Assembly: GCA_026003475.1 (NCBI GenBank)
Contig: BPHJ01000001.1
Location: forward strand, 186,001 to 250,000
DNA: 64,000 nucleotides
DNA from: Candidatus Kapaibacterium sp.
Lineage (GTDB): Bacteria; Bacteroidota; Ignavibacteria; Kapaibacteriales; NICIL-2
Direction of reading: 5' to 3'
The translations under genes were made by a program, and so were the position numbers. The notes under the pieces are model-generated. The model made no database searches. It was given only the letters and a program-made list of their open reading frames with translations, and was not told the origin of the DNA. Shown piece by piece: positions 4,467 through 24,430 of this stretch (positions within the stretch are counted from its first letter, which is position 1; every line of letters begins with the position of its first letter).

Positions 4467-4468
4467 TC

Positions 4469-6943
4469 CTATCGTTCCAGTCGCAAAAACGGCAGTGCCC
4501 ACCGATGGGTATCGCTCTGGACACGCAGTATGTACGCGCCATTGGATACGGTGCTCGGTAGGGGAATGGGAAGAACCGTCTCGCCAGAGGGTAGCCACCG
4601 TTCCGTAACGGTCGCCACTGGTTGGCCCAGCGTGTTGACCACAGCGATCGAGAGCTGGACGAGCGGCTTCTCGTTGGTGACATGGAGCCAAATCATCTCG
4701 CCTTCGACGACTGCACTCAGCAGCTCCACTATGGTTGCACGCGGCTCAGGTGCTGATTGGACGTTGCTTGGCTCGGTGATCGTGAAGACTGATGCGCTCT
4801 GCACACTCAGCGATGGGTCCGCCGAGTATCGGAGCCGAACCACTGCACTATCAGTGGGAGTGTTCGGGACTTGCCAGGTCAGTTGTTGTTGGGTTGCATC
4901 GTAGGTGAATTGAATCACCCGCCAGTTGAGACCAGCGTTGGTGGAGTAGTCAATGCGAATGCGATTGATGAAGTCTGAGTGCCACCGAATCGTCTGTTGT
5001 GAGCCAGCAGCCCATCGCTCGCCGCCGTTGGGAGCAAGAAGTTCTAACACTGGCTGACCAATTGCGAAGGGCCCGCTCTGACCATAGACGCTTGCGTCGT
5101 CGGCGTTGAGGACGCGGACAATGGCGTTCGATGTCGGACGCGATGGGATCGTCCATTGGTACTGTTGGGACTGCGTGCGCTGGGTTAGGGTGTCCCACTG
5201 CATTCCGCCGTCGAGGGAGACCAGGACGCGGAAGGCTGTTACCAGGGTGCCAACCCAACGGATCGTGAGTGCCTCGCCAAAGCCGTATCGATCACCGCCG
5301 GCGGGTGTTTGGACCTGGATGTCCGGCACTAAGATTGCAAAGCTGGCGGCTGTGGTGTCTCCTACGGTAGGCCTTGTTTCATCGAAAACACGGAGCCACA
5401 CTGTCGGCATATTCTGTGCCGGTAGCATCCAGGTGTACTGCTGATTTGCAGCGGGAACGTTGCTTGCCAGGCGCGTCCATGTACGGAGACTATCGGTCGA
5501 GTATTCAATTGCTACGGACTGGACCTGAGCCGACGTCCAACGAATCTCGAGATCAGATCCACCAGTGAACTGCTGATTTCCAACAGGATGCTGGAGCAAC
5601 ACCAGCGGCGAAGATGGCTGACGAAGGCAATTGCTGGCGCGGCTATTGCGAATGACGTTGGCAACTTTAGAGCGAAAGGTGAGTTCGACGCTCGACTGAA
5701 TCAAGTGGCAGTAGCTCATGATGCTGCCGCCATTCCATGACGGTCGGGGTGTGATTGGTGAACGGTAACATGCGTCGGCAATCGGAGGATTGCCCGTCTG
5801 TGTCACGCACGTATCCAATGGCGGTGCCCAATAGCAATCGTGTGTGTGCGGAGCGCCGAAGATATGGCCGATCTCGTGGGCAACGACCATCACGTCCCAT
5901 GTGTAGTTGAGCGTCGGGTAGGTGTACGTTCCGCGGATACCGCTGACGCTATACGCCGAGCCACGATTGCACAATGTTCCCAAGCGAGCAATTCCTCCAA
6001 CGTCCGTTGAGCTGGGGGAGGTCATGACGTGCACCAAATCGCGCGGCACACTTGCCCAGTTGCGGTTCCAATACTGCGACACTTCACCAAGGAGTGCGGC
6101 AATATCGGAGTCGTTTTGGTACGGGTCTTCTTCACCATTGGGTGGTTCGGTCCAAATCAGCACCCACGAAACGTAGAGCGTAATATTGACCTCGTCTTCG
6201 TAGATGCGGCTTGCCATCGAGAACACGGCAGCTACATAGGAGGCAACCCGCTCGGTGCTTCGACCGAGCCGTTGGTAGAGCGATGTCGTGGTTTCCACCG
6301 CTACGTTTGCCTGGAGCAGCGGGGAAAACCCGAGCACCTCCGGTGTTGGTTTCTGCAGATGGGCAAGCTGTTGGGCATACTCCGGAAGTTCCGCGGCTGA
6401 ACATACCCAGTGCCAAAGACTCTCTTCGTTGGTGGAAGTGGTCAGGATATGCTCTTCCTGGTTTGCATTGGTTGTGCCGGTTGGTTCGATACTGTACATG
6501 GTGCCGTCGCTGCGGCGAATGAGGGCATAGAGCTGACCATCAATGATGCTTACCCACAGGTGAGAATTGTCTTCGGTGCTAATTGTGCCACTGAAGGAAT
6601 ACTGCGTTGGTCCGGCAAGCGGACGTAACTCGGCAGGCTGACCATCGTGGGGAGCACGGACACCAAGCCACCATTGAGTTTGCCCATCCACAACCGATCG
6701 CGTGCGTTGAAGGTGAACAGTACGGGTTTCCCCCATTCCGACGGGGAAGTCTGTGATTTCCATCTCTTGCGCTGGCATTGTCGCCACTGCCGAGAGCATT
6801 GGCTTGTTGACCCAGTACGTCGCTGTCTGCACGCGGGCAGCTTTCAATGCCGATAGCTCCATGAATAAGCGCGCACTGATGGGTTCTTGAGCATCTGCAC
6901 TGGCAAACAGCAACGCAAGTGCAGCAACGACAACATATCGCAT
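4469..6943 (-). CDS. Secreted reprolysin-like metzincin protease with T9SS sorting tail
   Basis: The 824-residue protein begins with a signal peptide (MRYVVVAALALLFASADA). Zinc ligands appear as H356-E-x-x-H360-x-x-G-x-x-H366, the metzincin consensus HExxHxxGxxH, so the catalytic base is E357. The preceding ~200 residues fit an M12-type catalytic fold. Repeated beta-sandwich segments follow, containing GGERW- and GGDRY-like motifs, about 100 residues each. The last ~80 residues resemble the T9SS type A sorting domain (QLSIAVVNTLGQPV ... SNGAYILRVQ). The protein should be exported by Sec, then carried across the outer membrane by the type IX system and released or anchored at the surface. It ends three bases from the convergent TonB receptor. 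Its substrate is unknown. Confidence 0.88.
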   Translation of the reverse strand: MRYVVVAALALLFASADAQEPISARLFMELSALKAARVQTATYWVNKPMLSAVATMPAQEMEITDFPVGMGETRTVHLQRTRSVVDGQTQWWLGVRAPHDGQPAELRPLAGPTQYSFSGTISTEDNSHLWVSIIDGQLYALIRRSDGTMYSIEPTGTTNANQEEHILTTSTNEESLWHWVCSAAELPEYAQQLAHLQKPTPEVLGFSPLLQANVAVETTTSLYQRLGRSTERVASYVAAVFSMASRIYEDEVNITLYVSWVLIWTEPPNGEEDPYQNDSDIAALLGEVSQYWNRNWASVPRDLVHVMTSPSSTDVGGIARLGTLCNRGSAYSVSGIRGTYTYPTLNYTWDVMVVAHEIGHIFGAPHTHDCYWAPPLDTCVTQTGNPPIADACYRSPITPRPSWNGGSIMSYCHLIQSSVELTFRSKVANVIRNSRASNCLRQPSSPLVLLQHPVGNQQFTGGSDLEIRWTSAQVQSVAIEYSTDSLRTWTRLASNVPAANQQYTWMLPAQNMPTVWLRVFDETRPTVGDTTAASFAILVPDIQVQTPAGGDRYGFGEALTIRWVGTLVTAFRVLVSLDGGMQWDTLTQRTQSQQYQWTIPSRPTSNAIVRVLNADDASVYGQSGPFAIGQPVLELLAPNGGERWAAGSQQTIRWHSDFINRIRIDYSTNAGLNWRVIQFTYDATQQQLTWQVPNTPTDSAVVRLRYSADPSLSVQSASVFTITEPSNVQSAPEPRATIVELLSAVVEGEMIWLHVTNEKPLVQLSIAVVNTLGQPVATVTERWLPSGETVLPIPLPSTVSNGAYILRVQSDTHRWALPFLRLER

Positions 6944-6992
6944 GACGGAATGAACAGAAATGGCTACTCAAGACGAAAATACCATCCAAGGC

Positions 6993-7000
6993 TAAATTTG
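6993..7000 (+). promoter_or_regulatory. -7 element (TAAATTTG) of acs
   Basis: TAAATTTG fits TAnnTTTG and lies 32 bases upstream of the acs start codon in the divergent gap with the protease gene. A good TTTG partner is not visible at the expected distance. Confidence 0.45.
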
Positions 7001-7032
7001 AAACGGTCAACCATCGGTGAGCTTGCGACGCT

Positions 7033-9003
7033 ATGAACCATGAGGCTGCATCAGCGTTGGATTTTTCCAGCGACGTTGTCATTGAGCTGGACCAGTGGCA
7101 CCGCCGCACGACCATTCCCGAAGAGCTCCTGGCTCTTGCCGAGCGTGACATTCCCCAATTCTGGGATCGCATAGCTCGGGATATGCTCGAATGGATTGTG
7201 CCGCCTCAGCAGACACTTCGGTGGGAGCCACTGACTGCTGAGAGCGTGGCACCGGTTGCGCGGTGGTTTGATGGCGGCATACTCAACGTTGCGGTCAACT
7301 GTGTGGATCGGCACATTCGCACATGGCGCCGAAACAAAGCAGCAATCATCTGGGAAGGCGAGCCAGGGGATGTACGCGTGTTGACCTACTACGACCTCTA
7401 TCGCCAAATACAGCGCTTTGCGAACGTCTTGCTCTCGCTCGGTGTACGCAAAGGGGATCGAGTGACGATCTATCTGCCGATGATTCCCGAAGCTGTCATT
7501 GCGATGCTTGCGTGTGCCCGAATTGGCGCGATCCATAGCGTCGTGTTCGGTGGATTTTCCGCTGAGGCTCTCCGCGAACGAATCAATGACTCACAGAGCA
7601 GTGTACTCATTACCGCCGACGGTGGCTGGCGACGGGGGAGCATCGTTCCACTCAAGCGCAACGCTGATCAAGCGCTCGAGCAGTGTCCAAGCATTCGGCA
7701 TGTGGTTGTCGTCCATCGTGGAGTGGAAGACGCCACGCATGTTCCGATGCAGAGTGGGCGAGATCAGTGGTGGCATCGTCTGATGGAGGAAGTCCCGCCG
7801 AGTTGCCCTCCAGAGGCAATGGAGAGCGAAGACCCACTGTTCATCCTCTATACGAGCGGGACAACAGGGAAACCCAAAGGGCAGCTCCATACAACTGCTG
7901 GATATCTGACAGGTGTTACCGCAACGACCCGCTGGGTCTTCGACATTGCCGATGAGGATGTCTATTGGTGCACTGCTGACATCGGCTGGATTACCGGCCA
8001 CAGCTACGTTGTTTATGGGCCGCTTGCCAATGGTGCGACAGTGCTCATGTACGAAGGTGCACCAGATTATCCCGATCGCGATCGCTGGTGGGCGCTCGTT
8101 GAAAAGTACGGTGTGACGATCCTCTACACTGCACCGACGGCGATTCGAACGATGATGCGCTGGGGCGAAGAGTACGTCCAGCGGCACAATCTCGAAAGCC
8201 TTCGGCTGCTCGGCAGCGTGGGAGAGCCGATCAACCCAGAAGCGTGGCTATGGTATTGGGAGAACATCGGTGGCAAGCGCTGTCCGGTTGTGGATACGTG
8301 GTGGCAGACGGAAACTGGGTGTATCGTCATTGCACCGCTGGCGGGACGAACGCCGCTCAAACCTGGGTCGGCGACGTTCCCGTTACCGGGCTTTGCTGCC
8401 GCAGTTGTTGACGAGCGTGGCACACCGTGTCCTGCTGGGGTGCGTGGGTATTTGGTGCTCACTGCGCCGTGGCCTTCGATGTCGCGCACAATCTGGGGTG
8501 ATCCGGAACGCTACATCCAAACGTATTGGTCACGTTTCCCGGGCATGTATGCAACAGGGGATGCAGCAGTCTGCGATGGCGATGGGTTCTTCTGGCTGCT
8601 TGGGCGCACCGACGATGTGCTCAATGTCGCTGGGCATCGTCTCAGTACCATGGAACTCGAAAGCGTCCTCGTCGAGCATCCGGCAGTTGCCGAAGCAGCG
8701 GTGATCGGTCGAACCGATGCAGTCAAGGGACAGGTACCGGTTGCATTTGTCACGGTGCGGGAATCCTTCCCGATACATACAGGACTTGCCGATGAGCTCA
8801 AGGACTACGTCGTCGAACGGATAGGGGCGCTCGCTCGGCCAGCGGAAGTGCATTTTACAGCGGAGCTTCCCAAGACCCGCTCTGGGAAAATAATGCGCCG
8901 ATTGTTGCGAGATATTGCCGAAGGACGCGTGCTTGGCGACACAACCACACTCGCCGATCCAAGCGTTGTGCAGCATCTGGTGCAGCTTTATCGAGAGGAA
9001 TAA
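7033..9003 (+). CDS. acs: Acetyl-CoA synthetase (AMP-forming)
   Basis: At 656 residues it matches the usual ~650-residue length. It converts acetate, ATP and CoA into acetyl-CoA, AMP and pyrophosphate. An N-terminal ACS domain precedes the P-loop [11 protein letters not shown] near residue 280. The acyl-adenylate motif WWQTETG and the C-terminal [11 protein letters not shown] follow. The Lys in the last motif is the catalytic residue that Gcn5-type acetyltransferases and sirtuins modify in characterised enzymes. The start is an ATG with a TAnnTTTG element just upstream. No acetate permease or acetyltransferase gene is adjacent, so it seems to be a single-gene unit. Confidence 0.95.
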
Positions 9004-9385
9004 CGTTCACACGCACCAGCGAAGTGCAAAATCACTGAAGCGATTTGTGAATTGGTTCTGAATATTTTCGCGCACGAAGGGTTGAAGGATCAAACTTGCA
9101 GTGTTAGCGGTCTTTGACGCACGCATACTGCAACCGATAAGAAGGCGTACCGATGAACAGCGGTGGTGGTTCTTGCGCAGCGCAGCGATTCCTGCCACCC
9201 GTGTGAAAAGGCGCATTGCTGCCCTGCGATGCACAGGATTATTCTGCTTTTGGAGTAGCCAACATCCTCCTCCAGAAGTAGGGGAGCGTCTCAGACTCTG
9301 TTGGGACCAATGGAGCGTGTGGGAGGTAGAGCATGCAACATCTCTTTGTTTGTTCAACCAATGTTCAACAATCTGGAGTTCAACC
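9004..9385 (+). other. 382-base non-coding leader before the first large T9SS protein
   Basis: No gene is supported here. The reading frame of the downstream protein is open back to 9101, but that extension has no ATG and no recognisable fold, and the signal peptide begins at 9386. Three copies of GTTCAAC occur at 9352, 9363 and 9378, the last ending next to the start codon. I see no clear TAnnTTTG promoter. Confidence 0.5.
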
Positions 9386-12292
9386 ATGAATGCTCTGTTT
9401 GACGTGCTTCGTCGTGGCTTCCGCTGGGGAATCACCATTGCAGCAGTACTACTTACGATGCCGTTGCACGCACAGCAGCCGTGCGGCGTCAGCGTCAACA
9501 TCATCCCAATCGGCAAGGATACTATCATGGCACAGATGGGTCCTGTCGAGCGATGTATCTATCGCGTCGAACTCATTAACAGTCGGAACGATGTCTATTC
9601 CGTTCGCTTTGATCCCATCGCTTCGTCAACGCAAATCTGGAACGCAGCACCGATCTCACCATCCGTCGCTGTTGGTAACAGCAGCGGTGCATGGTGGTTT
9701 TTGACTGGGCCAGGGAGCTATCCGACCTCGACTTCAGCATACCCAATCGGAAGGTTGTACGTCAGTGGTCCAGCTCCACAACAGTTTCGTGTGACGTTCC
9801 GAAATGCGAACGAACAAACGCTTTGCTGGATCGTTATCGTAGGTCAGTGTGGAACGAGCGATGTAGGGTTCCAGGGTGGCTGCCTTGTCCCATCCATCAA
9901 CATCAGCACAGGCTATAACCCAGCGACAGGTTCAGTGATTCCGATTACCCCAACGTCCTACGACCCGAACTGGATTGTCATCTCCGACCCACTCCCGACT
10001 ACAAACGAACCACGACCGGCCAGCGTGATTACGAGCTACGCTAATGTTCCTGGAGGGTGTTGCTGGCAGGGACCTTTACCAGGATCACAATGGATAGCTG
10101 TTTACAATAGTCCTACCAACAGCACCAATGGTGTCTATGTCTTCGAGCGATGCTTCTGCATCGAAGGGCAGACACGTGCCGTTGTTGAATTGCAGGTGCT
10201 TGCCGATGACATCGTGGATTCGATCCTTGTCTGCGGACAGAAGATGACCAACCGCACGCCCAATTACACGCACAATTGGTTCAAGACACCGCCTCGGATT
10301 TATCGGGATACAGTGAGCCTGCAAAGTGGTACGTGCTGTATCCGGGTTTACGTAAGAAACACCAATAACGTCGCCTTTGGGCTTGACATTGCGGGTAGTA
10401 TCATGTCGCTTGGTCCAGCGGCTACGCTGCTTGCAGATACCTGCTGTAGCCAGTCGAAGTGTTGGATTGTGGGGCAAAAGATCCACGACCTCAACTGCAA
10501 CGGCAAGATAGACCAAGGCGAGCCTGCACTCAGCGGATGGACGATAACAGCAACCGCAGGGAACAACACTTTCTCTGCAACCACAGGAAGCGATGGGTGG
10601 TATAGCATCCAAGTGCCTCCTGGCACGTACACACTTACCGAGCAAGTCAAGCCAGGCTTTACGCCATCAACGCCCTCGGGTGGCCCTTACATCGTGACGA
10701 TTGCCCAAGGTCAGGTCTTGCAGTACGACTTCCTCAACTGCACCGCACCGCCACCGTGCGATACGATTGGGAAGCCCCGGCTTGATAGTGCCTGCTGCCA
10801 GTTCACGATTCCAATTTTCCCAGTGACAAGCCCCATCGGGGTCACCCAGATCAACTGGTCGCTCTCGGGTGGGACAATGGAGAGCATCACGAACTTCACC
10901 GGTTGCACTGCCTCATATCCCAACCCATACGGGCTGACAAGTGGAACCATTACGTTCACGCCTGCCTGTACCAATAGTCCGATGAATCTTGCACTGGAGG
11001 TCACACCAACGACTGCAAGCGGTGTAGTGACGCTCTACTTGGCGATCCAGCACGGTCCCAACAAGGTTTGCTACGATACGCTCACTCTCCGCTGTGCGCG
11101 CGCTCCCATCACCAAGTGCGATAGCCTGGCGGCGACCCCCTTCATCTTCAACAACCTCCAGCAGTCCTGGCGTACATTCAAGATTTTCAATCAAAAGCAA
11201 CCTGCCTCCCCGATAAAGCAGGTCAACATTTCGTTGAGTCCTCCTCCGTGTTCGCCGACCTACGTGTGGACGGGTGGCGGATTGATGGTAGATGCTGGGA
11301 ACCGCAGCTGGGGGTACACAACCAGCGGCACTCCTCCCTATAGCCAGATCTCGATGGCTTGTGCTCCTGGTACAACTGCTCCTCAAGGCGCAGCAGCAAA
11401 TAACACCGTTCAATTCAACCTCGGGGTGGACTACACGTGCAATTGGGTCGGGAACGTCACGCTCACCGTCATCCACTGCGATGGGGATACCTGCGTGCTC
11501 ACCTATCCAAACTGGTGCGCCAAGCCGAATCCGATGCAATGTTTGATCATTTCTCCACCCGGCGTTGTCATCGGGCAACCCGCATTGTTGCTACGCACTG
11601 CCAGGCTGATGGAGGTAGAGATTAGCCGTGATTTGGTGCCTGGGAAGCCAGAACTCCACGCTTGTAATGCTACGGTGGTGCCGGTCAGCCGGGGGTGGGA
11701 CGTGATCGGAGTTAGCATCGAAGACGAACTGACGCAAGATGAACGCGAGTCGGGTCGCTACCTCGGCTGGGTTGGCGGTGCCAAACTCACGAAAGCGGAT
11801 GCTGCTCGGTGGGCACTTGTCGAATTACAACCGTGCAAGCAGGATACCACGCCCATCAAGAATCCGTGGATTCTGCGAGCAACGCTGGCGTCGAACGAGC
11901 CACGATCTGATACCCCGCGCGTTGCCGTGACCTTCTACGATGCCGAGGGGAACCCCATCGCAAGCGACACGGCGAAGGCGGCAATGCAGGTGACCTCGGT
12001 ACCAGTCGAGATCGTCAAGCCCGCAGGTGGCTCGAGCGGTATCCTGCAGGTCGTGCCGAACCCGGCAGCTGAGGAAGTGCGGGTCGAGTACGTCTTGGCA
12101 CGTCCGAGCGAGGTTACGGTCGAGCTCTGCGACCTACTTGGCAAGTGCCAGCTGAAAGCCGAACTGGGCTGGATGCCGGCAGGACCGAACTCCTTCGGCA
12201 TGAGCACGGCAGATTTGCCCACAGGCAGCTACATCCTACGGCTCCGCACCAGCGACGGCGTGCTCACCGCACCGCTTCGCGTTGTGCGGTAG
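9386..12292 (+). CDS. Large cysteine-rich T9SS-secreted protein with SdrD-B-like domain
   Basis: I place the start at the ATG at 9386 because it opens a typical signal peptide ending LLTMPLHAQ. The product is then 968 residues. The N-terminal ~350 residues are beta-rich with repeated Cys pairs (CC, CxxC). Around residues 360-450 is an SdrD-B/Cna-B-like domain, with GQKIHDLNCNGKIDQGEPAL and a D-x-DG-like calcium loop. A CC-rich unit and an unclassified region follow. The last ~80 residues are a T9SS type A sorting tail with VVPNPAAEEVRVEY and ILRLR. It is presumably a surface or extracellular structural protein held together by disulfides. A terminator follows directly. A second large protein of similar style comes next on the same strand. 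Confidence 0.85.
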   Translation: MNALFDVLRRGFRWGITIAAVLLTMPLHAQQPCGVSVNIIPIGKDTIMAQMGPVERCIYRVELINSRNDVYSVRFDPIASSTQIWNAAPISPSVAVGNSSGAWWFLTGPGSYPTSTSAYPIGRLYVSGPAPQQFRVTFRNANEQTLCWIVIVGQCGTSDVGFQGGCLVPSINISTGYNPATGSVIPITPTSYDPNWIVISDPLPTTNEPRPASVITSYANVPGGCCWQGPLPGSQWIAVYNSPTNSTNGVYVFERCFCIEGQTRAVVELQVLADDIVDSILVCGQKMTNRTPNYTHNWFKTPPRIYRDTVSLQSGTCCIRVYVRNTNNVAFGLDIAGSIMSLGPAATLLADTCCSQSKCWIVGQKIHDLNCNGKIDQGEPALSGWTITATAGNNTFSATTGSDGWYSIQVPPGTYTLTEQVKPGFTPSTPSGGPYIVTIAQGQVLQYDFLNCTAPPPCDTIGKPRLDSACCQFTIPIFPVTSPIGVTQINWSLSGGTMESITNFTGCTASYPNPYGLTSGTITFTPACTNSPMNLALEVTPTTASGVVTLYLAIQHGPNKVCYDTLTLRCARAPITKCDSLAATPFIFNNLQQSWRTFKIFNQKQPASPIKQVNISLSPPPCSPTYVWTGGGLMVDAGNRSWGYTTSGTPPYSQISMACAPGTTAPQGAAANNTVQFNLGVDYTCNWVGNVTLTVIHCDGDTCVLTYPNWCAKPNPMQCLIISPPGVVIGQPALLLRTARLMEVEISRDLVPGKPELHACNATVVPVSRGWDVIGVSIEDELTQDERESGRYLGWVGGAKLTKADAARWALVELQPCKQDTTPIKNPWILRATLASNEPRSDTPRVAVTFYDAEGNPIASDTAKAAMQVTSVPVEIVKPAGGSSGILQVVPNPAAEEVRVEYVLARPSEVTVELCDLLGKCQLKAELGWMPAGPNSFGMSTADLPTGSYILRLRTSDGVLTAPLRVVR

Positions 12293-12310
12293 CACTGCAT
12301 CATACACCTC

Positions 12311-12347
12311 AACGGGCGGCTCTCACCAGAGGGCTGCCCGTTTTTTT
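12311..12347 (+). terminator. Rho-independent terminator
   Basis: A GC-rich hairpin (ACGGGCGGCTCT pairing with AGAGGGCTGCCCGT, with one bulge) is followed by seven Ts, starting 20 bases after the stop codon of the 968-residue secreted protein. Confidence 0.9.
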
Positions 12348-12357
12348 GTCGAATGCC

Positions 12358-12365
12358 TATTTTTG
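12358..12365 (+). promoter_or_regulatory. Possible -7 element (TATTTTTG) for the second large T9SS protein
   Basis: TATTTTTG fits TAnnTTTG just after the terminator and 135 bases before the next start codon. This would imply a leader of about 125 bases. No TTTG is seen at the matching -33 distance. Confidence 0.35.
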
Positions 12366-12499
12366 ACCGGGCGTCGGGAACACCAGGTGCCGAACGTGTG
12401 TATACGCGCCCTGTGCACCCGAGGGGGACACCACTTCGCGTGTTCACCTTGAGTGCAATGTGATGAGGGTTTTGTTTCACTTTCTCAGTTGGTGTCCCC

Positions 12500-15400
12500 A
12501 TGATGTGGTCACAGAAAAGTTCCGCTTCCGCGCTTTATGCGCAGCGTTCCCTTCAGCGGCATTTCTCCAGGGCTGTGCTGCTGCTCGGCTTGCTCCTTCT
12601 GAGCGCACTTGCCCCACGGCTATCTGCGCAGAGTACGAACATCGTCGAAGCCTCCGATTCGCTGACGGGCTTCTGGATCAAGAAGGTTGTCAGCAACACG
12701 CAGATTCCCTCCGGGGTGACGTTCTCGTACACGATCTACTTTTCCTTTCCCGCCGGGACGCAGAACGTCACGATTACTGATGTGTTGCCACCGGCTGTGG
12801 TCTTCCAAAGTCTTTCGGTGACCAGTGCGTGCCCTCCAACAAGTACCAACGCACCTCCGCCTGGCTCGAATGGGACAGTTTCCGTCAGCTGGGGGGCGCT
12901 TCCCAACGGCTGCTCCGGCTCGATGACGATTGTGGTGTCGTTCCCCAATGGCACGACGTGCAACGGTGCAACCGCACGTAACCGCGTATGCCTTGCTGGT
13001 TCGGTACTCATCAACGGGCAAGTGATTTTCCGTGAATTCTGCACGCAGTTCGTATCCACTACCGCGCAAGCAGCCAGTACCTGGAGCATCCAAAAGCACC
13101 TGCTCGGCTCGACCTATGTCGGGGGAAATTGCCCGCGTGCGTTCGCCGGCGACACGGCGACGTACCTCATCTGCTTGACCAATAATCCCGGGCAATGGGG
13201 TTGGAATGGGCAGCTCAATCTGGTCAATGGCACAGTGACGGACGTGCTACCGAGCGGAGCACAGTTTGTCAGCGCCTCGTGTCCCGTGAGTGTGAGCGGG
13301 CAGACGATTTCCTGGAACGTGGGGAATCTCTCCGGCACGCAGCCATACAACACGCAGTGCTGCACGCTGAAAGTGTACTATCCGCCGAGTACATTCCCCG
13401 CAAATTCCCAAATCACGAACACCGTCACGCTAACCGGGCAAACAGGAAGCCCGCAGGCGCCGTGCGGTCCTCTCCAGCAATCGAACACGCTCTGTTGGCA
13501 GAAAGCGACGCCACCACCGCCTACCACAACGGCACAACTCTGGAAGTGGGTCTCCACCAACGGACAGCCAGGGTGTGGGGGCACCTACACAATTCAGTTG
13601 TGCAACACTGGGCAGGTAGCAATCTCTTCGGCGACAATCAGCGATACCCTGCCTAGCGGGGTGAGCTTTACGAGTTTTGGCTATACGCATCCGGGCTTGA
13701 CAGTAAACCAGAGTGGAGGTATCATTACCGCAACGCTCAACGGAGCTCTTCAACCTGGGCAGTGCCGCTGGTTCTCCGTCAACTTCACCGTCTCGCCGAC
13801 GGCAACACCGAATAGTACGATCACCAATTGCGCCTGGGCGCAAATTCCAGGTCTGCAGCCCTTGCAGTCCTGCGCTTCCTTTGTTGTCCAAGCCCCAGCC
13901 CCGAGCGCCTGCATCGGCAAGGAGATTTGCTCACCGCAGGGATCGTACACGCCAGGGCAAATCGTGCGGGTGCGCTTCCGTCTGCAGAACATCGGCGGGC
14001 AATCCATCAACGGAGCAACGCTGGTAGATAACCTCCACCCGAGTTTGCAGTATGTCGGCAACCCGAGCTTCTACACCAGCAACGCCTGGAACACGCCGTG
14101 CAATCCCACCTCCGGCACCAGTCCCTGGACACCTGCACCAACGTTGACCGTAAGCGGGCAAACCATCACGGTGAGCAACATCACTATCCCGGCAACTTGC
14201 CAAAACCTCTTCTGGAACGGTTGTGGCTACTACGGCAATGCTGGTGTGCCGTTCTACTGGATCGAATTCGACGCCAAGATCACTGATACTGCCGCACTCG
14301 GCAACATTCCGAACAATTACACCCTCTCCGGTGGTGGATTGTCGCAGCCGGTGACCTCGAACACCGTGTACCTCTTGGTCACCGGAACGACAGGCTTTAC
14401 ACTCGAAAAACGCGTTGCCAGCGATACCACCAACTGGCAATCTTCGCTGATGGCGAGCGCCGGTGCGACGGTCAACTACCGCCTGCGGATGAACCTCACG
14501 GGCACGGCACCGCTGCGCTACGCCACCTTCGTTGATTTGCTCCCGATGGATAACGGTTCGAGCGATGGCAAAATCCTCCAGACCTGTGCCCCGCGCGGCA
14601 GCCAGTATAGCCTCACGTACCAAAGCACCGTGGCGAGCACACCCGCCAGCACCGGCTACGCGAATGCTGCCACGACGCTCGCCAACGCCAATGCAATCAG
14701 CTCGGCGATTGGTGCACCGGCACTCTTTCCGACGAGCTGTGGCACTGCGGGAAGTTGGAGTAGTGGCATTGCTGCCGGTGCGAAGAATCTCGGTTTCGTC
14801 TTCGGAACGGTTGGGGCTTCTGCGTCGCCACTCTCAGTGGTCGTCGCAGCGAAACTCGACCCACAGGCACAGCCCGGGCAGATTGCCTGCAACACTTTTG
14901 CTGCGGGAGGAGCCGTGCGGCACCTACTCAATAGCAGCACCATCCAGGACGTGCCGATCGGTGCTCTTGAATCGGCGCCGGTCTGCGTGACCGTGGACTC
15001 TTCTGCACGGTGTTATCGCGTGCAGCCTGCTGGCTCAATTCCAACACCGGTCGGCGTTGTCTCGACCCCGAAGGGCGATGCCTGCAAGTACCAGTGGACT
15101 GTGTCAATTGTGAACCCCGGTCCGGCTACCCAGGGCTGCGTCAGCTCACCGCAAGGGCAAGTCACTCCGAGCAGTTTCGCGGTCCCGACGGGAACGTCTT
15201 CCCTGACGCTGACCTTCGTGGACATCCCACCGCAGGATCAAGTGGCGTGCTTCATCTTCGGTACACTTGATGCTGCAGGCACCTGCACGCCATGCGACAC
15301 GCTCTGCGTTGACCTGCCGCCGTGCCCGAAAGACACCTGCTGTCCGCGCTTTGAGCGAGTGGAGATCAAGTGCAAGGGGCGCGATAGCTCGGGCAACCAA

Positions 15401-17242
15401 GTCTATCAACTCTGTGCCAGCGGGACGTTGCCGTGCAAAGCATCTATCGTCTTGACAAGCCCGGATGGGAGCTTCACCCCCGCGGCGTTCTCAGCAGGTC
15501 CAGGCGCCTTCACGCTCTGCACGGACTTCACCGATCTGCCGCCAGCGGCATCGGGTGTAATAACGGTGCACTACGCTGTGGTCGGTCAGGGAGTTGTGCT
15601 CTGTCGCGATTCAGCACGTCTCCAGCTCCCGCAGTGCCCGCCGGCGCCTCGCAACTGCTGCGACCTCTGGCAGCGCACGCTTCAAACGCAGGTCAAGTGG
15701 TTCTCGAACGGCACTGTGGTCATCACCGGAACGGCAACCGCAACAGCGCCAATCTCCGCCTTCAAAGCGGCGATCGTGAGTGCCCAGCTCAAGCGCTGGT
15801 GTCCCATCATTCCACCGCCGCCGAGCAGTTGGCAACGGATCTATGGCGACATCACCGGTGGATGGCTCTCGCCAGCACCAGGTGCGGGAGTTACGCTCTC
15901 GCCATTCTCGCGGCAGATCAGCTGGGAAGGACCCGTGCCGGATAGTTGCAAGCGCTGGTTCCCAACGGCAACTCCAGCGACCTTCCAGCTCAACGCTCTC
16001 TTCCCACCGGTCTCAGGGTACAAGTGCGGCGACTCGCTCTGCTTCACGGTGCGCTACACATTCACCGATTGTGAATGCCGCACGTGTGATACGCTCATCA
16101 CGTACTGCGTGGCACGCACAAAGAAATTCCCGGACTTCCCCTGGTTTGCACTCGCAGTCAATCGAACAGCGCGCAATGGGTTTACGCTCAGAACCGACGG
16201 AATTGTTATCGAGAGCGAAGCGTCTGGTGAACTTGCAAGACTCCAGTTGCTTGAGCTCCGCGGCATCGCAATCAGTGATGTTCGGATTTATGACGACCGC
16301 GGTGAAGCCAGCGATGTTCAGACAAAAATCACCGAAGGCGGATGCGTGATCATCTTCGGTGGGCGTGGGAATACCCCGTATGAGCTTCATGTCAGCACGA
16401 GAGAAGCTCTCCCCGATTCCGGCAAATCGCTCATCGCTATTTGGACCTGGGAGGAAACGGATGCAGCTGGCACCACGGAGAACGTCAGTGAAACACGTGA
16501 GATCCGTATCCCTGCATACGTAGGCGAGCGTCCGAACCCGACAGGCACGCTGGTCCAAGACCGCGAGAGCATGCCACCGCACGTGCGCACCTTCGCACTG
16601 GCGTTCGTCAATGGTCCGGTAGCTGCCAATCAGATCGAAGTCGAGCTTACCGCTCTTCCGCAACCGGATGGAACAGTGCCGCAGATTCTCGCCATCGGTC
16701 CGGTGGATGCACCGCAGGTCACCATCCGGTGCACGAGCACCTCGCCGATTCGGTGTGGGTACCACATGGAGGGTCCGCTGGCACCGGGTGAAATGATCCG
16801 CCCGCTCTTCATGACGGTTGCCGGCTCCAAACGTGACGGACTCGATGCCGTTGAGCTGGAGTACGTCCTCCGCGATGGGGAAACGGGTACCACGATCGGC
16901 AAAGGGCGGGTGATCCTCGAAGGTGCCGTCTCCGGCATCAAGCCTGGTGAGGAGGAGGAAACATCGCTACTGCGTGGGGTCGAGATTGGCTCGATCATCC
17001 CCAATCCGGCAAGCGAGGTGGTGACTGTGGCAGTCCAGGCTGCACATCCAACCGGGAACGTGACGCTCGAGTTGGTTGATGCGCTCGGGCGACCGGTGGC
17101 GCATGTCCTGGCAGGTGCCACGCTCCCGGCAGGCACCACTGCGGTGCCTGTTGATGTCAGCCAACTTCCGAGCGGCGCGTACATGCTCGTTCTGCGCAGC
17201 TCTGCTGGCGTGGCAGCAAAGAAACTGGTCGTGACCCGGTAA
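12500..17242 (+). CDS. Very large T9SS-secreted protein with DUF11-type repeats
   Basis: The protein has 1580 residues. The signal peptide ends near residue 44 (LLLLSALAPRLSAQ). At least five DUF11 / conserved-repeat beta-sandwich units follow in the first ~750 residues. Each has the pattern of a 'T-D-x-L-P' turn, for example ITDVLPPAV, VTDVLPSGA, ISDTLPSGV and LVDNLHPSL. A cysteine-rich section (CCPRFERVEIKC, CCDLWQRT) comes next, then a Cys-poor region. The final T9SS type A sorting tail contains IIPNPASEVVTVAV and YMLVLR. DUF11 proteins are typically long surface or extracellular stalk-like adhesins. It follows the 968-residue protein on the same strand but has its own terminators on both sides. 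ATG codons at 12500 and 12503 are both possible starts. Confidence 0.87.
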   Translation: MMWSQKSSASALYAQRSLQRHFSRAVLLLGLLLLSALAPRLSAQSTNIVEASDSLTGFWIKKVVSNTQIPSGVTFSYTIYFSFPAGTQNVTITDVLPPAVVFQSLSVTSACPPTSTNAPPPGSNGTVSVSWGALPNGCSGSMTIVVSFPNGTTCNGATARNRVCLAGSVLINGQVIFREFCTQFVSTTAQAASTWSIQKHLLGSTYVGGNCPRAFAGDTATYLICLTNNPGQWGWNGQLNLVNGTVTDVLPSGAQFVSASCPVSVSGQTISWNVGNLSGTQPYNTQCCTLKVYYPPSTFPANSQITNTVTLTGQTGSPQAPCGPLQQSNTLCWQKATPPPPTTTAQLWKWVSTNGQPGCGGTYTIQLCNTGQVAISSATISDTLPSGVSFTSFGYTHPGLTVNQSGGIITATLNGALQPGQCRWFSVNFTVSPTATPNSTITNCAWAQIPGLQPLQSCASFVVQAPAPSACIGKEICSPQGSYTPGQIVRVRFRLQNIGGQSINGATLVDNLHPSLQYVGNPSFYTSNAWNTPCNPTSGTSPWTPAPTLTVSGQTITVSNITIPATCQNLFWNGCGYYGNAGVPFYWIEFDAKITDTAALGNIPNNYTLSGGGLSQPVTSNTVYLLVTGTTGFTLEKRVASDTTNWQSSLMASAGATVNYRLRMNLTGTAPLRYATFVDLLPMDNGSSDGKILQTCAPRGSQYSLTYQSTVASTPASTGYANAATTLANANAISSAIGAPALFPTSCGTAGSWSSGIAAGAKNLGFVFGTVGASASPLSVVVAAKLDPQAQPGQIACNTFAAGGAVRHLLNSSTIQDVPIGALESAPVCVTVDSSARCYRVQPAGSIPTPVGVVSTPKGDACKYQWTVSIVNPGPATQGCVSSPQGQVTPSSFAVPTGTSSLTLTFVDIPPQDQVACFIFGTLDAAGTCTPCDTLCVDLPPCPKDTCCPRFERVEIKCKGRDSSGNQVYQLCASGTLPCKASIVLTSPDGSFTPAAFSAGPGAFTLCTDFTDLPPAASGVITVHYAVVGQGVVLCRDSARLQLPQCPPAPRNCCDLWQRTLQTQVKWFSNGTVVITGTATATAPISAFKAAIVSAQLKRWCPIIPPPPSSWQRIYGDITGGWLSPAPGAGVTLSPFSRQISWEGPVPDSCKRWFPTATPATFQLNALFPPVSGYKCGDSLCFTVRYTFTDCECRTCDTLITYCVARTKKFPDFPWFALAVNRTARNGFTLRTDGIVIESEASGELARLQLLELRGIAISDVRIYDDRGEASDVQTKITEGGCVIIFGGRGNTPYELHVSTREALPDSGKSLIAIWTWEETDAAGTTENVSETREIRIPAYVGERPNPTGTLVQDRESMPPHVRTFALAFVNGPVAANQIEVELTALPQPDGTVPQILAIGPVDAPQVTIRCTSTSPIRCGYHMEGPLAPGEMIRPLFMTVAGSKRDGLDAVELEYVLRDGETGTTIGKGRVILEGAVSGIKPGEEEETSLLRGVEIGSIIPNPASEVVTVAVQAAHPTGNVTLELVDALGRPVAHVLAGATLPAGTTAVPVDVSQLPSGAYMLVLRSSAGVAAKKLVVTR

Positions 17243-17263
17243 CGCGGCGGTATCGCAAAAGCA

Positions 17264-17305
17264 CACGCGGCTCCTCGGGCTTCGGGGAGCCGCGTGGTGT
17301 TTTTT
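17264..17305. terminator. Strong, possibly bidirectional terminator
   Basis: A perfect 11-base stem (CACGCGGCTCC / GGAGCCGCGTG) is followed by a T-rich run on the plus strand. An AAAA tract before the hairpin could serve minus-strand transcription. It separates the large secreted protein from the converging mer operon. Confidence 0.85.
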
Positions 17306-17355
17306 CAGGGGCATCCATGCAATGGCTTGTGAAAGCGGCGAACACGCTGATTTCC

Positions 17356-19029
17356 TCATCCCGCGCAGCAGCTCAGCTGGTGCACGTCTTTGGTAAAGCT
17401 CAATGCAGCCAGTTTGACGGCTTCTGACCACGTCAGGTAGGGATGGAACAGGCGGGCCAACTCGGAAACCGGGATCTCGTAGCGTAGTGCCAGCGTCAAC
17501 TCGGTGACTAGCTCACCGCCATCGGGCGCAAGAATCCGCGCACCGAGCAGCCGATCGGTGCCCGGATCACGCAGCAGCTTGACAAAGCCGCGGGTGTCCC
17601 GGCTCACGACCGCCCGCGGCACCTCCGACAGCGGCAGCACCGACGTTTCGTAGGCCAGACCAGCGGCCTGCGCCTGGCGCTCGTTGAGCCCTACTGCTGC
17701 CAGCTGCGGATCGGTGAACACCACCCAGGGAAGCGCCTGGTAGTCCCGCACCTGGTGGCGACCCAGCAGCGCATTCTCGGCGGCCAATTGCCCTTCGTAG
17801 GCTGCCGTGTACACAAATGGCGGATAGCCGATCACGTCGCCTGCCCCGAACACTGTTGGCACTGCTGTGCGGAGCGTTTCATCCACCTGCAGAAATCCCT
17901 GCCGGTCCGTGGTAATGCCCAGCACCTCCATACCCAGGTCATCGGTGTTGCCTCGGCGACCAGTTGCCACGAGCAGGTGCGAACCTTCCAGCTGATACGT
18001 CCTGCCCCGGTGTTCGCAAGTCAGCACCACGCTACCTTCGTTCCAGGCTACCTGCACAAGGCGCGTATTGGTCCGGATGTCAATGCCCTCGTCGCGGAGA
18101 TACTGCGAGAGCGCTTCGACAATGTCGGGGTCTTCCTGTGGCAGAATCTGTGGCTGGAGTTCCAGCACTGTCACCCGGCTACCCAGTCGGACAAATGCCT
18201 GTGCGTTTTCCAGTCCGATATAGCCGCCGCCGAGGACGAGCAGGTGTTCGGGCAGCTTGGTCAGGTGATACAGCGTCTCGTTGGTCAGATAGGGACCGTC
18301 GGCCAGGCCAGGAATAGGAGACACAGCCGTACGTGAACCGGTGGCAATCAGCACAGCCCGAGCAGTGATTATCTCGTCTCCAAGCTGGATGCTGGTGGGG
18401 CCTGATAGCTGTGCCCTTCCGGTGCGAAACACAATGTGTTGCCCGTCGAGAAGGTCCAGGTACTTGTGCTGGCGGAGCTCGTCGGTAAGCGCCTGCACCT
18501 GACCGATCAGGGCGGGGAAGTCTTCCACCGTGCTCGACGAACGAATACCTGCAAACGGATGGTGTGCCGTGCGGTGGTGCGCTTCGGCTGCGCGGATGAG
18601 CGCTTTGGAGGGCACGCAGCCGACGTTGACGCAGGTGCCGCCCGGCGGCAAGCCATCGTTGACGATGAGGCAGCGGAAGCCCAGCTCGCGTGCACGCAAC
18701 GCTGCTGCAAACGCCGCCGAACCACCACCGATGATTACCAGGTCAGGGTCTGCCGCCGCTGTGCTGCTGGCTGGCGGTTCCTGTTTTTCGGTGTGGTGCA
18801 GCACCGACCACCCTTCCAGTCGGTAACCGTGTCCAGCGTGGGCAATCGCTGCCCTGATCTCCTCGATGTTCGGGGAGTTCCCCTCCACGGTCACGACTGC
18901 TCGTTGGGTTTGCCAGTCGGGAATCTCAGCGTGCAGGACGCCAGGCAGGCGCTCAAGTGCCTGCTCAATTGTGCGAGCACAGTGGGGACAGGTCATACCG
19001 CTGATGCGCAGCTCCAGAATCGTCGTCAT
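17356..19029 (-). CDS. merA: Mercuric reductase with N-terminal HMA domain
   Basis: The 557-residue flavoprotein reduces Hg(II) to volatile Hg(0) with NADPH in the cytoplasm. An N-terminal heavy-metal-associated domain carries GMTCPHC (C14, C17). The FAD-binding GGGSAAFAAALRA segment is near residue 101. The redox disulfide lies in GGTCVNVGC (C133, C138). The C-terminal vicinal pair C554-C555 (LSCCAG), which hands Hg(II) to the active site, separates MerA from ordinary dihydrolipoamide dehydrogenases. Its ATG overlaps the merTP stop by four bases (ATGA), so it is the third gene of a translationally coupled operon. No merB is present, so resistance should cover inorganic mercury. Confidence 0.95.
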   Translation of the reverse strand: MTTILELRISGMTCPHCARTIEQALERLPGVLHAEIPDWQTQRAVVTVEGNSPNIEEIRAAIAHAGHGYRLEGWSVLHHTEKQEPPASSTAAADPDLVIIGGGSAAFAAALRARELGFRCLIVNDGLPPGGTCVNVGCVPSKALIRAAEAHHRTAHHPFAGIRSSSTVEDFPALIGQVQALTDELRQHKYLDLLDGQHIVFRTGRAQLSGPTSIQLGDEIITARAVLIATGSRTAVSPIPGLADGPYLTNETLYHLTKLPEHLLVLGGGYIGLENAQAFVRLGSRVTVLELQPQILPQEDPDIVEALSQYLRDEGIDIRTNTRLVQVAWNEGSVVLTCEHRGRTYQLEGSHLLVATGRRGNTDDLGMEVLGITTDRQGFLQVDETLRTAVPTVFGAGDVIGYPPFVYTAAYEGQLAAENALLGRHQVRDYQALPWVVFTDPQLAAVGLNERQAQAAGLAYETSVLPLSEVPRAVVSRDTRGFVKLLRDPGTDRLLGARILAPDGGELVTELTLALRYEIPVSELARLFHPYLTWSEAVKLAALSFTKDVHQLSCCAG

Positions 19030-19652
19030 GGTAACACTCCAGTTTGAGGACTAGCATCGTAACCAATAGCACGAACTGCGTCCACGATTGCCGCCACAGA
19101 AATCTTTGTGGTATCGTAGCGCACGCGTGCCCGGGGCGGTCTGAATGTTACGTCCGCACTCTTGACACCGTCGAGCCGCCGCAGCGCAAGGGAGATAGTT
19201 CGGCTACAGGCAGTGCACGTCATGCCTTTGATCGTTAGCACGACCTGACGCACTGTCTGTCCCTGCGATTGCTGTGCTATCGCCGCCGGATGCGTCCGCT
19301 CGATCAACGAGGGTGCCAGCAGAAATCCAAGCACGAGCACCGTGCCCAATCCCAGCATCAAGCGGCGAGTCTTCGGACGGGGTTCAGTCTGGCAATTACA
19401 CCGTGGCTTCCGGGAGCGCTGCACCTCTCGGTACCAAGCCAGTCCCAACGCGCCCAGCGCAACGACAGCGAACAATGGTCGGTAGGGTTCCAGTGCGGAA
19501 AAACTGCTCGCCCACGCACCGCCAATACCAAGGAGCACTGCCGCAAGCGGTCCCAGGCAGCACGCCGATGCCAGAAGCCCTGCTCCGATAGCTGCCAGTA
19601 CGCTCGAAAGGGCTAGTCGCCTGTCTGATCTCTTCACACTACGCGAGTTCAT
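19026..19652 (-). CDS. merTP: MerT-MerP fusion mercuric transport protein
   Basis: The 208-residue protein joins a MerT-like membrane transporter to a MerP-like metal-binding domain. The N-terminal part has about three transmembrane segments, with the vicinal C31-C32 in helix 1 and a second pair, C85 and C87. After a further helix (about 98-114), the C-terminal HMA domain carries GMTCTAC (C146, C149). Hg(II) would pass from the HMA domain through the membrane Cys pairs to MerA. MerTP fusions are a known variant. It overlaps both neighbours by four bases, after the regulator and before merA. Confidence 0.93.
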   Translation of the reverse strand: MNSRSVKRSDRRLALSSVLAAIGAGLLASACCLGPLAAVLLGIGGAWASSFSALEPYRPLFAVVALGALGLAWYREVQRSRKPRCNCQTEPRPKTRRLMLGLGTVLVLGFLLAPSLIERTHPAAIAQQSQGQTVRQVVLTIKGMTCTACSRTISLALRRLDGVKSADVTFRPPRARVRYDTTKISVAAIVDAVRAIGYDASPQTGVLP

Positions 19653-20062
19653 GGGTATTCCTCCACAGAAATGGTCAACTGGATGCGTTCCAGGTCTTCC
19701 TCATCAAAGAGCTTCGTGAGCAGTCGGGCAAATGGATTGTCCGTGCAAACGCGGTAGTAGATTGTCTGTGCTTCCCGGCGTGCCTCGACGAGCGCTTTTT
19801 CACGCAGAATTTTCAGGTGGCGTGAGACGGCCGGCTGTGAAATCTGGAAGATGTCGGCCAGATCGCAAACGCACAGCTCGCCGGCTCGGTGGAGTACGTA
19901 GAGCATCCGCAGCCGGGTTTCGTTGCCGACTGCTTGCATGAACGCTGCCAGCGCTACAAGGTGGTCATTGCGCATTGCCTCCCTATGCAGGCGGGAGAGC
20001 TTCTTCGGGTCAACGGTGATGCGAACACAGGTGCGGTCGGTTAGTTCTTGGCACTTGTTCAT
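19649..20062 (-). CDS. ArsR-family metal-responsive repressor of the mer operon
   Basis: I place the start at the ATG at 20062, giving 137 residues. Longer in-frame extensions run through the operator region. The winged helix contains the ArsR-type sensor motif ELCVCDL (C64, C66), followed by the recognition helix SQPAVSRHLKIL. Further cysteines (C4, C12, C106) could complete a thiolate site for Hg(II) or another soft metal. As first gene of the merTP-merA operon with a four-base overlap, it probably acts as a derepressed-by-mercury repressor. It replaces the classical MerR activator, as in actinobacterial mer operons. The metal specificity is inferred from context. Confidence 0.88.
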   Translation of the reverse strand: MNKCQELTDRTCVRITVDPKKLSRLHREAMRNDHLVALAAFMQAVGNETRLRMLYVLHRAGELCVCDLADIFQISQPAVSRHLKILREKALVEARREAQTIYYRVCTDNPFARLLTKLFDEEDLERIQLTISVEEYP

Positions 20063-20064
20063 TG

Positions 20065-20098
20065 TATAACGAATCGTGTAAATAACAAACCTGTTATA
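20065..20098. promoter_or_regulatory. Candidate operator/promoter region of the mer operon
   Basis: Immediately upstream of the regulator start are outward arms TATAAC (20065-20070) and GTTATA (20093-20098). Inside them is a small palindrome ACGA-A-TCGT. ArsR-type repressors bind such AT-rich interrupted dyads next to their own start codon. No standard -7 element stands out. Confidence 0.45.
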
Positions 20099-20433
20099 GA
20101 TACGATCGGGACCAACAGTTAGTGTAGAGTGGGACATACGATTGTCGCCTTGCGGACATTTCCAACAATGAGAGGAAGGGTGCCGGGATGCAAGCGAGGG
20201 GGATTGGAAAGAGGCTCTGGCTGGTTGGTGTACGGCGATATGCATCTGGTATGGCTAGCTGTCTCACGGCTTGTACCGCGTGCAGCACCTCCCCGCACGC
20301 GCGCTCCTGATGTTTCCGCGTCTGGGCGCAGTGGTTCCCTTCACTCTTCCACTTACAAATGTCAGGCTTGCATTCAAGCCTGGAGCACGGTAGCGTTCCG
20401 AAGAGAATCCTACCGCGTGGCTACTGCGCCGAG
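20099..20433. other. 335-base intergenic stretch with no supported gene
   Basis: This lies between the mer operator and the end of the decayed T9SS fragment. Frames on both strands are short, arginine- and cysteine-rich and look like random translations. I see no RNA gene, repeat or terminator with a clear T-run. Confidence 0.4.
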
Positions 20434-20796
20434 CTACCGCACCACCACCAACGGTTCGACGACACACATACCATTTCCGCGCGCAACAACCAAGTACACA
20501 CCTGGAGCGGCTGCGTTCCAGTATGCGCTGGCGGTACCAACAACAGTGCCGTCGTAAAGAGTCGCGAGTGTCCGTCCATCGAGGGAGCAAATCTCGATCC
20601 GCAGGGAAGTGGTTAGGGTGGTGTGGGCAGTGATTCGGACATCGCGTTCTGCTGGATTCGGCCACACGTCCAAACGCACGGCTGGGTTCTGATCTGGAGT
20701 CGGTGCGACGCCGGTTGTCGTCACCTCCGCGCGGATGGCAGGGCTCAGATCACTAATCACACCGCTTGGGGTGCGGACACGGCCGACGGTCCGGAC
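20434..20796 (-). pseudogene. Remnant of a T9SS-secreted protein (C-terminal tail only)
   Basis: The minus strand encodes ~120 residues that align end to end with the C-terminus of the secreted protein at 22268-24364. Both contain VRTVGRVR-x-PSGV, a WPNPA/VPNPA motif, D-G-R and a final PLV-V/I-VR. This is the end of the fibronectin-type-III-like domain plus a T9SS type A sorting tail. There is no signal peptide and no catalytic or passenger domain upstream. The open frame before it runs into the promoter of the divergent UbiA fusion gene. It is best read as the 3' relic of a duplicated, mostly deleted gene. A short expressed protein is unlikely, because without a signal peptide the tail would have no use. 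Confidence 0.75.
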
Positions 20797-20858
20797 TTCG
20801 TCGCGAGCCGGCACGGTAGTAGTTCCACACCGCAGCAGCTGAAAATGCTTTTCTTGTG

Positions 20859-20884
20859 TAAATTTGCCGACCGAATAGTCGGTC
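20859..20884 (+). promoter_or_regulatory. -7 element and overlapping palindrome before the PNPOx-UbiA gene
   Basis: TAAATTTG (20859-20866) fits TAnnTTTG. Directly after it lies the perfect inverted repeat GACCGA-ATAG-TCGGTC (20869-20884), covering the expected transcription start. The form is like TetR-family operators. The start codon is 18 bases further on. Confidence 0.55.
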
Positions 20885-20901
20885 AATATCATGGTGATGC
20901 A

Positions 20902-22251: not shown

Positions 22252-22267
22252 TAGGCTGCGGCAATGG

Positions 22268-24364: not shown

Positions 24365-24430
24365 GGGGTGACCTCCAGGTGGTAAACGACACTTGGTCAA
24401 TTCGCAACGACTGTGCCAACTGGGCTGCTG

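Follow-up and report, generated by a model that had tools for sequence, protein, structure and literature searches.

Two adjacent genes for large cysteine-rich T9SS proteins in Candidatus Kapaibacterium, candidate disulfide-braced surface stalks

Gene pair and genomic setting

The window, a stretch of 64,000 nucleotides (G000:C1:186001-250000), comes from a Candidatus Kapaibacterium sp. genome that consists of a single contig of 2.16 Mb and is 95.3% complete. Two large genes adjoin on its forward strand. Gene A (positions 9386 to 12292, stop codon included) encodes a cysteine-rich T9SS protein of 968 amino acids with 36 Cys residues (3.72%), and gene B (12500 to 17242, stop codon included) encodes another, of 1,580 amino acids with 55 Cys residues (3.48%). 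These coordinates and lengths are the same as in an earlier sequence-only reading of this DNA, and its central observation of two very large cysteine-rich T9SS proteins encoded by adjoining genes is, in the main, real.

The same reading assigned each gene a terminator of its own, and strong candidates are indeed present on the forward strand right after the stop codons: a 14-pair stem with a T run at 12311 to 12342 for A and a 15-pair stem with a T run at 17264 to 17296 for B. Terminator-like sites show no excess over the whole region (7 found versus 7.9 expected), so that the credibility of these two comes from the length of their stems and from their position. Given the intervening terminator, separate expression of A and B is possible. 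The 207-base gap between the genes has no sigma-70-like promoter call on its forward strand, and no RNA elements were detected at the gathering threshold within positions 4000 to 24000. Repeats inside 9386 to 17242 are limited to four short direct families of two copies each. In several relatives of A and B, the stretch TGTTTCAC or TGTTCCAC is located ∼20 to 30 bases upstream of the presumed start codon (sites at 12473 to 12480 and in L112, L113, L114, L042, L043, L046, and L053); possibly, it is a leader or promoter element.

Downstream of B, on the reverse strand (17356 to 20245), there is a mercury-resistance gene set comprising an ArsR-type regulator, MerT, and a MerA-type reductase, the last two of which contain metal-binding domains. 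It is followed by a gene for a UbiA-type prenyltransferase (20890 to 22248), homologues of which are found within a few kilobases of an A- or B-family gene, on either side, in the genomes G005, G020, G027, G033, and G011. A gene for an M12B-like (reprolysin) protease (4469 to 6943) lies near A both here and in G001; in G017, its homologue directly follows a B-family gene.

Domain architecture of proteins A and B

Protein A starts with a putative signal peptide (residues 1 to 30; 9386 to 9475), recognized by eye as a hydrophobic stretch ending in LHAQ, which is followed by an N-terminal region (residues 31 to 365; 9476 to 10480) with no match in Pfam or NCBIfam. Next comes an SdrD_B/prealbumin-like domain (approximately residues 360 to 452; 10463 to 10741), assigned from its Pfam score and from phmmer. 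The SdrD-B-like domain noticed earlier is upheld by a phmmer match of residues 337 to 437 to the solved SdrD (E value of 7.9e-4), although its Pfam score of 25.4 bits falls below the cut-off of 29.7. This domain includes a D-x-N-x-N-G-x-x-D-x-G-E stretch, which we take to resemble the calcium sites of SdrD, with Cys371 inside it. The cysteine-rich two-domain module (residues 445 to 720; 10718 to 11545) is common to A and B. After a stretch without matches, the protein ends with a T9SS type A sorting domain (approximately residues 890 to 968; 12053 to 12289) that contains Cys915 and Cys921 and scores 32.1 bits with TIGR04183 (cut-off 23) and 20.8 bits with Pfam Por_Secre_tail, under the cut-off of 27.

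The putative signal peptide of protein B (residues 1 to 44; 12500 to 12631), also identified by eye, is a hydrophobic stretch ending in LSAQ. The DUF11-type region (residues 45 to 832; 12632 to 14995) was delineated from HMM segments and profile comparison. Three of the segments score 27.9 to 33.7 bits (Pfam cut-off 24.6), the fourth is weak (14 bits; E value of 0.065), and the fifth domain has no HMM match, but profile comparison relates it to the fourth (90% probability). Of the at least five DUF11-type repeats that had been proposed, three are thus over the Pfam cut-off, whereas two have this weaker backing. Further along are an additional copy of the cysteine-rich module's first half (residues 864 to 944; 15089 to 15331; hmmsearch i-Evalue of 4.3e-9, profile comparison 97.9% probability) and the complete module (residues 935 to 1211; 15302 to 16132). 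About 285 amino acids without a match separate it from the T9SS type A sorting domain (residues 1499 to 1578; 16994 to 17233), which scores 32.4 bits with TIGR04183 and 36.4 bits with Por_Secre_tail, above both cut-offs. All these features are on the forward strand. No catalytic domain was recognized in A or B with Pfam and NCBIfam.

The T9SS tails reported earlier for both proteins are therefore well founded, and the genome encodes the SprA translocon (a frame of 2,298 codons; 900.8 bits, cut-off 200). Together, the C-terminal tails and the presence of SprA support the predicted export of A and B by the T9SS. The genome contains 67 matches to the type A sorting domain (E value of 0.001). The set of 60 T9SS open reading frames (ORFs) used for comparison comprises A, B, and 58 ORFs read from 52 sequence stretches that cover 58 of the 65 other matches; the seven matches left out are six mostly short-framed ones and one at 22271 to 24400 in the window. 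Each ORF was taken from the first start codon or the edge of its stretch, and the lengths of the other T9SS ORFs are somewhat overstated.

Structure prediction was informative for part of protein B. The AlphaFold2 model of residues 835 to 1247, built from three sequences, has a mean pLDDT of 52, and its usable part (model residues 1 to 213; block pLDDT of 58 to 87) is all beta. The top Foldseek matches were ciliary central-apparatus proteins, followed by fibronectin, bacterial adhesins, and factor XIII, with TM-scores on the model of no more than 0.25; the best VIA matches were GH2 enzymes (Z of 9.6 over 97 residues). Such unspecific matches of a predicted fold support a common beta-sandwich and not a function, and they do not count against families missing from the match lists. 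The full-length model of A (mean pLDDT of 34) was too poor for a fold search. By sequence, no solved structure matched B (E value of 0.01) or the module (E value of 1).

A shared cysteine-rich module with apparently exchangeable fronts

By profile comparison, the modules of A (residues 445 to 720) and B (residues 935 to 1211) are homologous: the second domains match with 98.3% probability (E value of 2e-14) and the first domains with 94% probability (E value of 1e-7). A single HMM made from both families finds both modules, which is not independent proof, as it was built from them. The module has no match in Pfam or NCBIfam, where residues 832 to 1212 of B were searched as segments and the copy in A inside the whole protein. 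A search of 296 genomes from across the phylum with a nine-row alignment (E value of 1e-6) found module matches in 12, of which 11 belong to the same order and one to the same class. Within the 60 T9SS ORFs, A and B are the sole matches to the module HMM (E value of 0.1). Derivation of A and B as paralogues of the other T9SS proteins of the genome was considered and rejected, as BLAST matches to those proteins fall at the tail end.

The G001 genome encodes a 1,392-residue fusion in which a B-like front (39 to 40% identity to B residues 32 to 834) is joined to an A-like back (43 to 45% identity to A residues 385 to 968). On account of this protein, the fronts and the cysteine-rich backs look exchangeable. 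Identity to the A protein of G001 itself is equally low (44%), which suggests that the exchange is old. Behind the fusion gene lies a further B-like gene, truncated where the contig stops. Over its first 77 bases, the fusion-gene contig (L043, at the contig end, read on the strand of the gene) is identical to L042:9890-9966, a stretch upstream of the A gene of G001; this could reflect allelic alternatives downstream of the acetyl-CoA synthetase gene, a leader that is repeated, or an assembly node. A two-domain module that has no Pfam or NCBIfam entry and is combined with exchangeable fronts could serve as a marker of such surface proteins in the order.

Distribution in related genomes

Relatives were counted at E values of 1e-20 or better in 41 genomes of the order, including the source genome. 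A relative of A is encoded in 13 of these genomes and a relative of B in 14, while both are found in just 6 (G000, G001, G002, G017, G025, and G033). Adjacency was shown in two genomes, G000 and G002; in G017, they share a contig but are widely separated, and in G001, G025, and G033, each is on a contig of its own. Within the genus (6 genomes), A is present in 3 and B in 5, and three B copies are truncated at contig ends. The tandem that had been suggested as something to look for in related genomes therefore exists here, but it is not a conserved unit, and a conserved A-B operon was rejected as a description of the pair.

The B relatives include those of Candidatus Kapabacteria KatS3mg040 (85% identity), Chlorobiota J074 (86%), and Candidatus Kapaibacterium sp. 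Ch6 (80%). In the source genome and in J074, A is flanked by the acetyl-CoA synthetase gene and by B. In KatS3mg040, the acetyl-CoA synthetase gene is followed directly by B, with A absent from that place; neither in KatS3mg040 (L112) nor in Ch6 (L114) is there an A within the 10-kb flanks of B.

Conservation and paired loss of cysteines

By cysteine content, A (3.7%) and B (3.5%) rank second and third among the 60 T9SS ORFs, whose median is 1.07%, and first and second among the 54 ORFs of at least 400 residues. The highest content is that of L111:42-1238 (398 residues, 27 Cys, 6.8%), which carries the stretch HEIGHIYGFGHH and, by eye, appears to be a cysteine-rich metzincin-type protease. The "many CC/CxC motifs" of the sequence-only reading were an overstatement, as there are four CC and one CxC in A and three CC and one CxC in B. 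The CxxC motif occurs twice in B (CTPC and CRTC) and is absent from A, and the heme motif CxxCH is absent from both; metal or heme binding by the cysteines was rejected on these grounds.

Cysteine is the best-conserved residue in both families, with a mean conservation of 0.74 in the A family (11 rows; next, Asp at 0.61) and 0.87 in the B family (14 rows; next, Asp and Gly at 0.71). When B is compared with its seven nearest relatives, the value for Cys is 0.92, followed by Trp with 0.84. In the same eight rows, with gaps set aside, 13 cysteines of B vary by substitution, and 10 of them form five pairs with matching loss, each pair within one domain and within 90 residues: 225/287, 880/929, 972/1007, 1101/1176, and 1181/1203. 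The domains here are those whose boundaries were cut in this analysis. In controls drawn from columns of other residues, with place and number of losses matched, there were 1.6 ± 1.5 such columns, and none of 5,000 draws reached 10. The second DUF11 domain of G033 lacks only Cys225 and Cys287; that of G027 also lacks Cys288, with Cys261 falling in a gap, which suggests 261/288 as a further pair. This leaves Cys288, Cys1282, and Cys1411 as variable cysteines that have no partner.

An earlier version of this test took gaps as losses. For B, its result (20 of 24, control 10.4) was inflated because a deleted stretch was scored as loss; for A, this cruder test gave 14 of 22 versus a control of 10.4 ± 2.4 (fraction 0.14), which is not significant. 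The T9SS ORFs of the genome show no bias toward even cysteine numbers (31 even and 27 odd, p = 0.69, with crude mature starts and two of the 60 ORFs dropped because they were too short for the cut or had no Cys left). In the A and B families, cysteine totals are often odd, as is the total of 55 in B.

The paired loss, the top conservation of Cys, the lack of CxxCH, and the presence of only two CxxC motifs together support the assignment of the B cysteines to disulfides rather than metal sites, and the paired loss favors intradomain disulfides over an intermolecular mesh. For A, conservation agrees with disulfides, whereas the cruder pairing test is not significant. The earlier proposal of disulfides instead of metal-bound cysteines is thus supported for B and for A has the backing of conservation.

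Disulfide-forming enzymes

Searches for the VKOR, Thioredoxin_4, DSBA, and DsbB families returned no match in the 95.3% complete source genome, while the same searches gave matches in 14 control genomes (VKOR in 3, Thioredoxin_4 in 9, DSBA in 8, and DsbB in 6). Within the order, DSBA and DsbB were searched in the source genome only; in all 41 genomes, VKOR was found in none and Thioredoxin_4 in one, below the cut-off. VKOR is patchy across the phylum (41 of 198 genomes), so its absence is not strange by itself. Oxidation of the cysteines in the absence of DsbA, DsbB, and VKOR may be brought about by oxygen, by an enzyme outside the four families searched, or after export. It is conceivable, if not very likely, that this bacterium, and perhaps the whole order, builds disulfide-rich surface rods without VKOR, DsbA, and DsbB, using a thiol oxidase tied to the T9SS or extracellular oxidation after export, and that A and B are among the main clients of such a pathway. 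How the disulfides of A and B get made is the real puzzle posed by these proteins, and they provide a clear-cut case in which to study how T9SS cargo acquires disulfides, in a bacterium that yielded no match to four standard oxidation families.

Proposed role and alternative explanations

Taken together, these data point, with a probability of roughly 60%, to A and B being large multidomain T9SS surface proteins that form stiff, disulfide-braced stalks with an exchangeable front. After export by the Sec system, their domains would adopt beta-sandwich folds, with internal disulfides locking many of them, and the T9SS would then take the proteins across the outer membrane and display them on the cell surface as stiff stalks that resist proteases. 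The cysteine-rich module, being nearest to the tail, would serve as the rigid base, and the front half would be the exchangeable presenting part (five DUF11-type domains in B; its own N-terminal region and the SdrD_B-like domain in A) that contacts surfaces or other cells. A and B might act as adhesins or as a shield.

T9SS cargo does not always stay on the cell: type A tails occur also on released proteins, and A and B could be released factors, binding substrates or proteases, rather than structural components of the surface. The proximity of the M12B-like protease gene to A, and of its homologue to the B-family gene in G017, would fit such a role. However, the domain types recognized are ones found in adhesins and surface proteins, and none of them is catalytic, so release of A and B appears unlikely.

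A surface layer, stalk, or sheath held together by bonds between molecules, as proposed in the sequence-only reading, would make A and B a layer cross-linked by intermolecular disulfides, similarly to the Chlamydia outer membrane complex with OmcA and OmcB. The high cysteine content of both proteins, the odd total of B, and its variable but partnerless Cys1282 are compatible with such links, and chlamydial envelope proteins are described as disulfide-cross-linked in PMC6752827. However, each of the five inferred B pairs is confined to one domain, which points to bracing inside a single chain; the co-occurrence of A and B in 6 of 41 genomes would be unexpected for a two-component layer; and neither protein matched Chlam_OMP6 at E values of up to 1. 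Moreover, PMC12635249 describes its own cases as nearly the sole known examples of permanent intermolecular disulfides between periplasmic proteins. A cross-linked layer is accordingly considered improbable, although intermolecular links might exist, with the odd Cys1282 in B as the foremost candidate.

That some cysteines are metal ligands or redox-active thiols, linked for example to the mercury genes directly behind B or represented by the CTPC and CRTC motifs, is highly improbable, as B cysteines are mostly lost in twos, CxxCH is lacking and CxxC limited to those two motifs, and KatS3mg040 has no homologue of the mer genes behind its B.

Comparison with known systems

Literature searches for T9SS or surface proteins of Kapabacteria, cysteine-rich T9SS proteins, and DUF11 surface proteins retrieved nothing on such proteins, judging by titles and the beginnings of abstracts. 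A and B appear to differ from the known surface proteins of their kind. The front of B resembles DUF11/B_ant_repeat surface proteins (PF01345, TIGR01451), whose domain it contains three times at scores above the Pfam cut-off and twice more in weaker form; in contrast to those proteins, B adds the unmatched cysteine-rich module, the T9SS tail, and cysteines that evolve pairwise. Protein A shares with the SdrD-type adhesins of Staphylococcus one B domain (PF17210) that matches the solved SdrD in phmmer. However, the domain in A is below the Pfam cut-off, is present in a single copy, and has Cys371 inside the calcium-site-like stretch, and A carries a T9SS tail, whereas the staphylococcal adhesins carry a sortase signal.

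Chlamydia OmcB, which has DUF11-like repeats, is a large, exported, cysteine-rich protein, similarly to A and B. Unlike OmcB, A and B do not match Chlam_OMP6, presumably the family defined by OmcB, are predicted to be exported by the T9SS, and seem to form intradomain bonds. According to PMC6752827, both DsbA and DsbB exist in Chlamydia, whereas neither was found in the source genome. The gliding adhesin SprB of Flavobacterium is a large T9SS surface protein, as A and B are predicted to be; PMC12635249 names it a type B substrate, whereas A and B carry type A tails. Disulfides do occur in T9SS bacteria, as the same paper describes SprF or PorG bonded to GldK in the periplasm. In contrast to this bond of the Flavobacterium track, the cysteines of A and B sit in the cargo itself.
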